In this document: piece by piece, positions 31,905 through 61,099 of the stretch
How positions within the stretch are numbered: position 1 is the stretch's first letter
Layout: every line of letters starts with the position of its first letter
Virus record (IMG/VR): IMGVR_UViG_3300036785_000488
Coordinates: 21,072 to 85,071 of that record
Direction: 5' to 3' (one strand)
Length of the DNA stretch: 64,000 nucleotides
DNA from: a virus
Made by a program: the position numbers and the translations under genes
The notes under the pieces: model-generated
What the model was told of the DNA's origin: nothing
What the model saw: the letters and a program-made list of their open reading frames with translations, nothing else
Databases searched by the model: none

Positions 31905-32180
31905 CTACTGAGCCTTCTCAGGCTCCCCTTGATGCTGGAGCTGATGGGCGATCTGGGCCTGGAAGCTCAAGATGGCCTCGGCTGTCTTGATCGCCTGGTA
32001 GTCGGCCAGGGCATTCGCCAGGGCGGGGTACACGTCCGCTGAAGTGGCGAGCCGCTGGGCCGTGAAGCGGGCCTCAGGATCGAGCACGACCCGACTCTGG
32101 CCGTTCTGGTCGAGCACCACGATGAAGAGGCACTGGACCTCGTGGCCCTGCTGTGCTTCGTTGCCGTTCGTCTCGGTCAA
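31905..32180 (-). CDS. Hypothetical protein
   Basis: 91 aa. N-terminal polar segment, then a beta-strand pair (CLFIVVLDQNGQSRVVLD) and a helix (DVYPALANALADYQAIKTAE). Coupled to the HNH gene by ATGA. No family recognised. Confidence 0.66.
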   Translation of the reverse strand: MTETNGNEAQQGHEVQCLFIVVLDQNGQSRVVLDPEARFTAQRLATSADVYPALANALADYQAIKTAEAILSFQAQIAHQLQHQGEPEKAQ

Positions 32181-32572
32181 TCTGTCCTCCTACGACACCT
32201 CAGACGGTTGCACTCCCGGCACTCCCGGCGTCCGTGGTGGATGAGCGCGTCTTCCAGGCTGTGACCGTGCTTGCAGTGAGTCTTCGACCCCAGCGCCCCT
32301 CTCCGAACGTTCTCACGGCGGGTGACCGGCTCCAGGTGATCAGGACGGCAACAAGCCCTGTTCCGGCACAGGTGATCCAGCTCCAGGCCATCCGGCACCG
32401 GCTGTACTAGCAGCTCGTAGAGAACCACATGAGCAAGGAGATCCTTCCCAAGGTGATTGAGGTGACCATAACCATTGGGGTACCTAGCGGCAGTCCAGGG
32501 CCAGCAGTCGTCAGCGACGAGGAACTTGTCCTCCAGTCGCTCAAGAAGTGATTTGGCATCACTCCTAGTCAA
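32177..32572 (-). CDS. HNH endonuclease (homing-type)
   Basis: 131 aa. DCWPWTAARYPNGYGHL at 22-38 and the HNH core Leu-Glu-Leu-Asp66-His67-Leu-Cys-Arg-Asn71...Cys-Arg-Pro-Asp-His79-Leu-Glu-Pro are typical of free-standing phage HNH enzymes. A C-terminal zinc group (HCKHGHSLED then ECRECNRLR) should bind DNA. It cuts DNA and may promote its own spread. No intron or disrupted gene lies next to it. Overlaps the upstream stop by eight bases. Confidence 0.86.
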   Translation of the reverse strand: MTRSDAKSLLERLEDKFLVADDCWPWTAARYPNGYGHLNHLGKDLLAHVVLYELLVQPVPDGLELDHLCRNRACCRPDHLEPVTRRENVRRGALGSKTHCKHGHSLEDALIHHGRRECRECNRLRCRRRTD

Positions 32573-51172: not shown

Positions 51173-52445
51173 CACCTCCCTTGTCTTTTCCGAAACCGAG
51201 AACCTGGTCGAGATCTTGGTGCCCGGTTTGCCGGGACCCCCTGGGCCTCCGGGACCAACTGGGCCTGGTGGAGTCCAGGGCATCCGCGGTCAACAGGGTC
51301 CTGTCGGACCCGCAGGACTCCAGGGTCCTCCGGGCGGCTTCGTCGTCGCTGGCATAGTGCCTGACCCAAGCCATCTCCCCGCCCTTCCCGCAGATGCTCA
51401 GTTCGGCATGGTGTGGTTGGTCGGCACGACGAGCTACACCGTGTACTACTACCTCGTAGGACACGGGTGGCAGACCCTCGCCATCGCTGCGGGACCGCAG
51501 GGACCACCAGGTGCTTCTGGACAACCGGGCGCTCCAGGAATTCAGGGCGTCGTGGGACCGACCGGTCCAGCAGGAGCCGTTGGGCCTGCTGGCGCACCCG
51601 GCGGGATGCAGGATCTCGTCCCACCAACCTGGAACGACCTGACGCCTTACATCGCAGGGGCATGGAGTCCGGTACCGGGTTCAAACGTGCAGTACTTGAT
51701 CGACGCCTGGGGCCGAGTGCAACTCGCTGGCGAGATTTTCTATCCGGGTGCAAACCCGATGGATGGCTCTGTCATACTCCAGTGCCCACCGCTGACATAC
51801 CCGGCTAACCCGGTAACAGTGTTGGCGGTGGAGGACGTGATCCCGGCCCGCTTCTATCGGATCGACATCCTCCCCAACGGATCCATCGAGCTGAGATTCC
51901 CTGCAACCAACACGACCGGACAAGTCTTCTTGGACAGCATTTCTTGGATGACCGCAGCAGTCCAGCCCCAAGGCAGCACGGGCAGCACTCCTCCTCCTGC
52001 GGTTCCTCAGACCGCTTCATACCTCTGGCTAACTGGTCCACCAGCAGACCTGGCGGTGCCGGTTGGCACGAATGTGTCCCTTCCTTGGACTGTCTTTGGG
52101 TCCACTGGGAATGACATCGCCGTAAAGGCTGACACCCAGACGATCATCTTCAATACAACGGGCGTCTACGGGATCAACTGGGACATCCGTATGACCAGTA
52201 CAGGCGGCTCAGTCCTGCCGTCATTCTCCACGAACGCCACGGGGTTCAACGCAGGCATCACCGACATAGGCAGCACACCCTCAGTGAACGTGGGTGGAAC
52301 AGTCTGGAGAAGTAAGGGATCGGCGGTCGTAGAAGCGACAGCCGGTGCCCAGATGAAGTGGCAGGCGTTCTTCGGTTCACCCGCTGGCGCTAGTGAAACG
52401 ATGAAGTCGAAGCAGTCCAGTCTGACCGTCGTGAAGACCCAATAA
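51165..52445 (+). CDS. Collagen-like fibre protein with C-terminal beta domain
   Basis: 426 aa; ATG 51165. Two collagen-like runs (about 18-58 and 108-146) flank a folded segment. The distal region has AWSPVPGSNVQYLIDAWGRV and a C1q-like sandwich (TQTIIFNTTGVYGINWDIRM, GAQMKWQAFFGS) near 300-420. A trimeric fibre or tip protein is likely. Overlaps the previous gene by eight bases. Confidence 0.76.
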   Translation: MTDTSLVFSETENLVEILVPGLPGPPGPPGPTGPGGVQGIRGQQGPVGPAGLQGPPGGFVVAGIVPDPSHLPALPADAQFGMVWLVGTTSYTVYYYLVGHGWQTLAIAAGPQGPPGASGQPGAPGIQGVVGPTGPAGAVGPAGAPGGMQDLVPPTWNDLTPYIAGAWSPVPGSNVQYLIDAWGRVQLAGEIFYPGANPMDGSVILQCPPLTYPANPVTVLAVEDVIPARFYRIDILPNGSIELRFPATNTTGQVFLDSISWMTAAVQPQGSTGSTPPPAVPQTASYLWLTGPPADLAVPVGTNVSLPWTVFGSTGNDIAVKADTQTIIFNTTGVYGINWDIRMTSTGGSVLPSFSTNATGFNAGITDIGSTPSVNVGGTVWRSKGSAVVEATAGAQMKWQAFFGSPAGASETMKSKQSSLTVVKTQ

Positions 52446-59319: not shown

Positions 59320-59858
59320 CAGTGGTACACCAGCTCTCTGCTCTCCAGCCACTCGTAGAGACCCTTGGGGACACGGTACTTACGTCCACGCAGGAACGTG
59401 TAGTTCGTACCGGCCCCGTAGGTCATGTCCTCGACATCGGTGTTGACCCGGATGACCCGCCATTCGTCTTCGACGGTGATCGGTTCCATCCCGAGGTCCA
59501 CCACCTCCAGAGGATTCGGAGCTGGCTCCTGAGCCTGTTGCTGGGTCTGCACCTCGCGGAAGTCCTTCATGGGGTTAGCAGCGACCTGAGGCTGTGACGG
59601 GTCAAGGATCTCATCGTCATCCACCGTGATCGGCGCGTCCTTGATCTGGTCGACCTTTTCCTGGGCGCTCTCGGGCAACTCCTCAAGCTCCCCAGTGATG
59701 GGGTCGAAGATCCCCTCCTGCTCGACCACGATGTCGACCTGGTTGACGAGACCAATCTCTTTCTGACGATCAGCCAATTCCTTGGCCTTTTCGTTGGTCA
59801 GACGCTGACGTTCTCGACCGGTGTGGTCGCCGCGTTGTGGTCCTCCGCGTGCTGGCAT
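59319..59858 (-). CDS. Head-module hypothetical protein
   Basis: 179 aa; ATG 59858 overlaps the last base of the capsid gene. Acidic N-terminal helix, Glu/Pro-rich linker, then a compact C-terminal domain (VIRVNTDVEDMTYG, FLRGRKYRVPKGLYEWLESREL). That end resembles small head proteins next to capsids of other actinophages. Function unknown. Confidence 0.68.
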   Translation of the reverse strand: MPARGGPQRGDHTGRERQRLTNEKAKELADRQKEIGLVNQVDIVVEQEGIFDPITGELEELPESAQEKVDQIKDAPITVDDDEILDPSQPQVAANPMKDFREVQTQQQAQEPAPNPLEVVDLGMEPITVEDEWRVIRVNTDVEDMTYGAGTNYTFLRGRKYRVPKGLYEWLESRELVYH

Positions 59859-61099
59859 CAGTTCGTCTGGGCGATGCAAACAGCCTGGTCAGTCACCAAG
59901 CCGAACCCCCATATCGCATACCAGCAGAGGGCGTGCTCACGTCCGAAGTCGAGGACGCCACCGTCACGCAGCTCGACCGGCAACGCGATGGCGTGACCGA
60001 AAGCGTTGTCACCGAGGTACATGGCCCAGTGCACAACCGGCGTACCGGCACCCGCAGGTTGGGTCTGCCGAATCTGCGTGGTCTCGATGTAGACCGTGTC
60101 GTTCAGGCGACCGATCTCTCCGAGCATGAAGTTCCCCGGTGCCGAGTACTTCGTGATTTCAATAAATTCTGGATTATCGCGAAGACGCCGGGACTGGTGC
60201 GGGTCGATGAAGCAGACGTACGTCTCACCGATGCGCGGCACGTTCTTCGTCGCCAACGTCTCGACCGCGTCCTTGGTCACCGACACGCTCATGTAGTACG
60301 TGCCCTTGTTGGTGCCCGTGGTCAGGTCGGTCTGCTGGGTGCCGACGGTACCGGCGTCGTAAGGCGACAGCGGAGTACGTGTCGCAGCCGGAGCCGGGAG
60401 GGCGTAGCCCCACAGCACCGACGAAGCGTTGTAGAGCGTGTCCCGCGCGGAGCCGTCAAGGTACTTCGCCATGTTGCGGCCCAGGAGCCGTGAGGACGAA
60501 GCCATGACGTCGTCAAAGGACGCGTTCAGAAGCAGCTCTGAGACTGCGACTGCGTAGCCCTGCTCTGCCACCGTGATGGCGTACTGGCTGGCGGTGAGCG
60601 CAGCGGTCTGCATACGCACACCTTCGACCAACTGTGTTGCGTCTCCGAGGTTGTTGTCATTCTGTTACCCCACCGGTTTCCCGGTGTGGGGCGGTCATTT
60701 CTGCCGCCCTCTGCATCTTTACCATCGATGCAGATCGGACTGTATCTTCACCTCCCGAGGGAGGGCTTCGCGTGCAGTCTCTACGGACTCGCCGGTTTCC
60801 CGGATTGCCTCGGTATTCCCCTGGTTTTGGGGGGGTTCACCGATACAGCGAAGTGGTGATCCTGCCAGTCACCCGACAGGACGGCCCATCGACCTCATGA
60901 AGTTGATCTGGAGACCTGGCTGGATGCCAAGCTCAGTCTTCTTCACGGCGAACTGCTCGAAACGCAACACCGGCATGCTCTGGAAGAGGATCTCCTTCGA
61001 CCAGATCACCTGGATAGCCGGGGACAACTGGGAGTTGGTCCCTGGATATCCGGTAGGTGAAGCACTCAGAAGGGGAGTGCCGGTGATGCTGGAAGGCAT
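59858..61099 (-). CDS. Major capsid protein (N4-gp56-like, HK97 fold), interrupted by group I intron
   Basis: Exon 1 61099-60892 and exon 2 60657-59858, together 1008 nt (335 aa) in frame. Exon 1 encodes an N-arm and IQVIWSKEILFQSMPVLRFE followed by FAVKKTELGIQPGLQINFMR. Exon 2 resumes Tyr-Asn-Asn-Leu-Gly-Asp...Leu-Val-Glu-Gly-Val-Arg-Met-Gln. The order (FMRYNNL...EGVRMQT, then VSELLLNASFDDVM, and the late FIDPHQSRRLRDNPEFIE) matches the N4-gp56-type capsid family. Without splicing, exon 1 ends at a TGA 21 bases after the junction. A weak AGAGG precedes ATG 61099. Confidence 0.92.
60658..60891 (-). ncRNA. Group I intron in the major capsid gene
   Basis: 234 nt, no ORF. Core seen on the minus strand: P3 CUUCGC (60853-60848) with GCGAAG (60771-60766); P4 UCGGU (60843-60839) with ACCGA (60814-60810); P7 GACU (60779-60776) with AGUC (60741-60738). 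An S-like GAAGAUACAGUCC lies at 60749-60737. P2 is CCUGUC/GGCAGG; P9 is UCUGCAUC (60734-60727)/GAUGCAGA (60717-60710), followed by two more GC hairpins, the last with a GAAA loop. P1 places exon-end U60892 opposite G60885. The intron ends with G60658. Subtype not assigned. Confidence 0.95.

Follow-up and report, generated by a model that had tools for sequence, protein, structure and literature searches.

Group I introns have been described in capsid and tail genes of the Cluster J mycobacteriophages (Pope et al. 2013, PMC3706429). In that work, splicing of the BAKA tail intron was shown by RT-PCR, splicing of the LittleE capsid intron was shown by RT-PCR and by N-terminal sequencing of the capsid, and both introns were found to be spliced during late expression. 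In other phages, a single gene can hold more than one intron: up to three occur in polymerase and terminase genes of the Bastillevirinae (PMC11878797), one gene of Twort has three, as cited in PMC11878797, and the tape measure gene of ICP1 has several group I introns (PMC10448857). The Jug phages carry many introns per genome (PMC12363816).

The locus considered here lies in a 64,000-nucleotide stretch of a viral record (the window), from a tailed soil phage with relatives among the Streptomyces phages (BRock, for example). On the strength of its sequence, it is very probably an ORF-less group I intron of the Cluster J type, inserted within the major capsid gene, inside codon 70, and expected to self-splice. 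The gene is on the minus strand. Exon 1 (60892–61099) begins with an ATG at 61099 and ends with codon 69 (AGG) and T60892, the first base of codon 70; read on without splicing, it would add SMGRPVG before a TGA, 21 nt past codon 69. There follow 234 nt (60658–60891) that hold no Pfam-matching ORF, and the capsid frame picks up again at A60657, with exon 2 (59858–60657) running from the rest of codon 70 to the stop at 59858. This is the break and resumption that a sequence-only reading of the DNA had described, and the joining of U60892 to A60657 that it proposed does yield, as a computed splice, a 335-aa protein through RYNNL. The junction is fixed because the neighboring bases differ, so that a slide by one base alters the product. 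Both halves match PHROG 1357, a phage major head protein family, in consecutive regions of the profile (24–72 for exon 1; 90–344, E 2.3e-43, for exon 2). A portal gene of the SPP1 type (63726–61966, minus strand) lies upstream, and the ORF in the scaffold position (61961–61158) has no family match.

The relatives compared at this junction are uninterrupted there. With the exon 2 protein as the query, 46 loci were recovered from IMG/VR, and in every one of the 43 full-length relatives, the capsid gene is unbroken, with R-Y-N-N at the junction point and no insert. These relatives are 75–96% identical to the spliced window protein, the nearest of them at 96%, and are collinear with it across the junction. 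Six cultured Streptomyces phage records (e.g. BRock and LuckySocke) match all 335 aa as a single unbroken alignment at 66–67%. The leave-out covariance model described below finds no intron in the 46 loci. As in a group I insertion, then, the flanks join into a continuous product and intron-less alleles exist.

The identity of the insert was addressed by several searches. By blastn, it matches 29 Mycobacterium phage records, comprising the Cluster J tail-gene introns and the LittleE capsid intron; 41% of the 271-nt query aligns to the tail-gene introns, at 86% identity. The exact 31-base intron pattern matched no viral contig, and a search of plasmids gave no intron match. Folding of the insert gives z = -4.4, beyond what chance would produce. 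Run along the insert, the Rfam model RF00028 scores 26.4 bits (E 8.5e-5 in a 451-nt search) and does not reach its curated cut-off of 50; over the whole window, it returns nothing at E<=1 and nothing at the curated cut-off. The splice-proven introns of BAKA (28.6 bits) and LittleE (30.7 bits) also fall below 50, and the low score thus belongs to the subfamily and not to the window intron in particular: the RF00028 cut-off misses introns of the Cluster J type, even the experimentally proven members.

A family search pattern, CGGTGAACCCC N3-25 GGGGAATACCGAGG, matched 65 stretches in IMG/VR. We aligned 54 introns, taking the structure from that of the window, and made a covariance model of 44 relatives from which the window was left out. 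This model matches the window intron at 60864–60735 with 122.5 bits (E 4.5e-29), in the range of the BAKA tail intron (134.7 bits), whose near-identical copy in Wanda is part of the model, and of the LittleE capsid intron (119.7 bits), which is not. There is no other credible match in the window or in the 85-kb record; a second one, at 52251–52219 (5.6 bits, E 5.6), was rejected as chance. Hence the compact group I intron that the sequence-only reading had placed in the major capsid gene is upheld by its core (P3 to P8 and J8/7) and by the family model, and the covariance-model search that it had named as a check comes out in two ways, clearly positive with that model and negative at the curated RF00028 cut-off. 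Because the same model takes in the splice-proven BAKA and LittleE introns, the window intron is not a new class. In bacterial genomes, the P4–P5 pattern has matches in two metagenome-assembled genomes of candidate phyla only. There, introns in or near this family lie at positions 72–236 of L114 and 3438–3597 of L115 (Microgenomates and Uhrbacteria).

The predicted structure can be followed element by element, all on the minus strand. P2 (60859–60882, from the fold) is a hairpin with a GUGA tetraloop. P3 is formed by CUUCGC (60848–60853) and GCGAAG (60766–60771) and shows compensatory changes in 5 of its 6 pairs, with 95% of cells paired in the 54-intron alignment. P4 (UCGGU/ACCGA) and P5 (CCCC/GGGG), with J4/5 GAA and J5/4 AAU, occupy 60810–60843 by alignment; they are invariant across the relatives, but both belonged to the search pattern. 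P6 and P6a (CCGG-GAAA-CCGG) follow at 60785–60809, from the alignment and the structure. The 5' strand of P7, GACU (60776–60779), lies outside the search pattern and is invariant in the 54 introns. P8 is a compact hairpin (60751–60764; fold and covariance model), and 60738–60750 hold J8/7, UGAAGAUAC, and the 3' strand of P7, AGUC, as placed by the 54-intron alignment. Three stacked hairpins, P9, P9.1, and P9.2 (60670–60734, fold z -6.5), make up the 3' part, which then ends in GGUAACAGAAUG with its terminal G. For the structure as a whole, the covariation score is 0.176; shuffled controls score 0.070, and slid ones reach no more than 0.092. The window intron keeps every core position that is invariant in the 54 introns, including P7 and J8/7. 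P3 through P8, J8/7 (GAAGAUAC), and the P9 stems lie where the sequence-only reading had put them.

The terminal G (omega-G) is G60658, both by the spliced frame and by the splice-site search, and it closes the intron as had been proposed. At the 5' splice site, U60892, the last exon base, is predicted by folding to pair with a G in P1 (60880–60896), which joins exon GAGGU/C (the slash marks the exon end) to intron GGCC-G-UC around a GAUG loop. The proposed U-G pair is to this extent reproduced, but P1 is short and carries one bulge, and with a z of 0.0, it does no better than shuffled sequence. The bulge is needed because the exon codon AGG puts an A where most relatives have a C. By eye, we recognized no P10 pairing. 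The IA2 subgroup is common in T4-like phages; here, it is unlikely because P7.1 and P7.2 seem by inspection to be absent.

Compared with the described introns, that of the window is close in sequence to the one in the minor tail gene of BAKA, Optimus, and Wanda. The two are about 86% identical over core pieces, and they share a 3' end of the form GUAACA...G, a U closing exon 1, and the lack of an ORF. They differ in that the mycobacteriophage intron sits in a tail gene, has 265 nt, and has a longer P8, whereas that of the window sits in a capsid gene, has 234 nt, and has a compact P8. With LittleE, the likeness is one of setting, as a major capsid gene is split in both and the same covariance model matches. 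However, the LittleE intron is about 820 nt long, its opposite strand carries a LAGLIDADG-type ORF, and it lies in a different capsid gene at a different site.

Could the interrupted frame arise otherwise? One possibility is that the intron is inactive, the capsid gene being dead or the contig coming from a defective genome. The weak P1 would fit with this. Yet none of the core positions invariant in 54 introns has been lost, the exons are intact and encode a protein 96% identical to its nearest relatives, and a dead insert should not last in an essential gene when the rest of the head operon is intact; we consider loss of activity distinctly improbable. Less probable still, indeed barely credible, is that the RNA stays unspliced and ribosomes cross the gap by bypassing or frameshifting, in the style of T4 gene 60. 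Such a mechanism would accommodate a broken frame with both exons in order, but it would have no need of an insert that matches a ribozyme family (E 4.5e-29) with a covarying P3, and it would have to span 234 nt as against the about 50 nt bypassed in T4 gene 60.

Finally, because the source is an 85-kb virus record of the IMG/VR type, one may ask whether the insert is an assembly artefact or a chimera in a metagenomic contig. An error of assembly would hardly be placed so exactly, with a U before the insert, a G at its end, and the frame kept, and in a separate contig, L081, the identical position holds another intron; this explanation, too, we regard as extremely unlikely. The preferred reading is thus a group I intron in the capsid message. 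We infer that it is catalytic and is spliced in infected cells. By this mechanism, an exogenous G would attack after U60892, the freed U would then attack after G60658, and the exons would join to give a capsid mRNA for the uninterrupted 335-aa protein. Splicing might also serve to control capsid production, as the sequence-only reading suggested. The intron itself may have come by homing, or it may have moved ectopically from a different site in the capsid gene.

Regarding its mobility, the window intron has no nuclease of its own by the searches we made. None of the ORFs over the intron matched Pfam, and the two long ORFs that run antisense across it have no match either. In the whole record, there is no match to LAGLIDADG_3, GIY-YIG, HNH, or Endonuclease_7, and by the families tried, the only homing-type nuclease is a free-standing HNH_3 ORF of 131 aa at 32177–32572 of the window (minus strand), ~28 kb from the intron. 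By these searches, the intron is not one that encodes a homing endonuclease, and the earlier statement that it has no ORF and no nearby homing gene holds in the sense that no ORF in it matches Pfam and no homing gene adjoins it. The corresponding capsid gene of another contig, L052, has at site 33 an intron of 727 nt (3703–2977, minus strand) that does carry an Endonuclease VII-type ORF (3680–3057; PF02945, E 5.8e-23), so introns in this set are able to encode a nuclease themselves.

A large share of these related introns sit in the same capsid family as the window gene. A constrained splice-site search (exon ending in U, intron ending in G, frame kept) resolved 11 sites in environmental relatives, given as completed codons/phase: 33/1, 37/2, 46/1, 51/2, 69/1, 98/2, 129/0, 138/0, 244/0, 308/0, and 314/1. 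Several contigs have two to five introns in one capsid gene. The fullest case is L086 (7914–5663, minus strand), with five, at sites 33, 46, 98, 138, and 314; the Rfam group I model matches all five, two of them above its cut-off, and their removal gives a 332-aa capsid protein 68% identical to that of the window. Five introns in a gene compares with three at most in the genes of Twort, ICP1, and the Bastillevirinae (PMC10448857, PMC11878797), and we found no description of a multi-intron capsid gene in the open-access literature. A sample of 67 full-length genes, which was picked by the C-terminal exon and not by introns but still favors close relatives, contained 5 split by one to three introns.

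Several other arrangements were observed. The fourth and fifth introns of L086 (6768–6483 and 5962–5663) have a different, Rfam-typical core, and their 3' part is 73–79% like the window intron over about 95 nt; to judge from sequence, they look like products of an exchange of parts between introns. In the capsid region of L067 (minus strand), there are introns at 37, near 138, and at 314 and a 459-nt gap near codon 258–278, so that this gene possibly holds five introns. Four more contigs (L064, L068, L092, and L057) have capsid-gene introns at 46 and 129 and, when their gene is complete, at 308 as well.

In a maximum-likelihood tree of 20 introns, the window intron groups with those at site 33 of L086, site 33 of L052, and site 51 of L050; the L086 site-33 intron is 86% identical to it over the aligned columns. 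The intron of L081, which occupies the exact site of the window intron (69/1) in the same gene, is of a different lineage and groups in this tree with that at site 33 of L083. For this small set, the simplest reading is that introns would have arrived twice at site 69, each time from an intron resembling the site-33 ones. A single origin of the two site-69 introns was also tried as a grouping and rejected (AU p 0.0003 against it, the group having been named after a first tree). More broadly, we lean toward the idea that group I introns have a hot spot in this capsid gene, with the compact family and a second type occupying at least 11 resolved sites, up to five in a gene, and with jumps between sites.

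With the window intron, a family already proven to splice is represented in a capsid gene of a phage other than the mycobacteriophages. Automatic annotation will fragment capsid genes of this kind and miss them. A capsid-type structural gene usually ranks with the most strongly expressed genes of a phage, and because so highly expressed a gene repeatedly accepts introns, splicing must be efficient. The multi-intron capsid genes form a ready-made series in which the movement of ORF-less introns from site to site can be tested. If the hot-spot reading is true, virion production in these phages would need several splicing events per capsid message.
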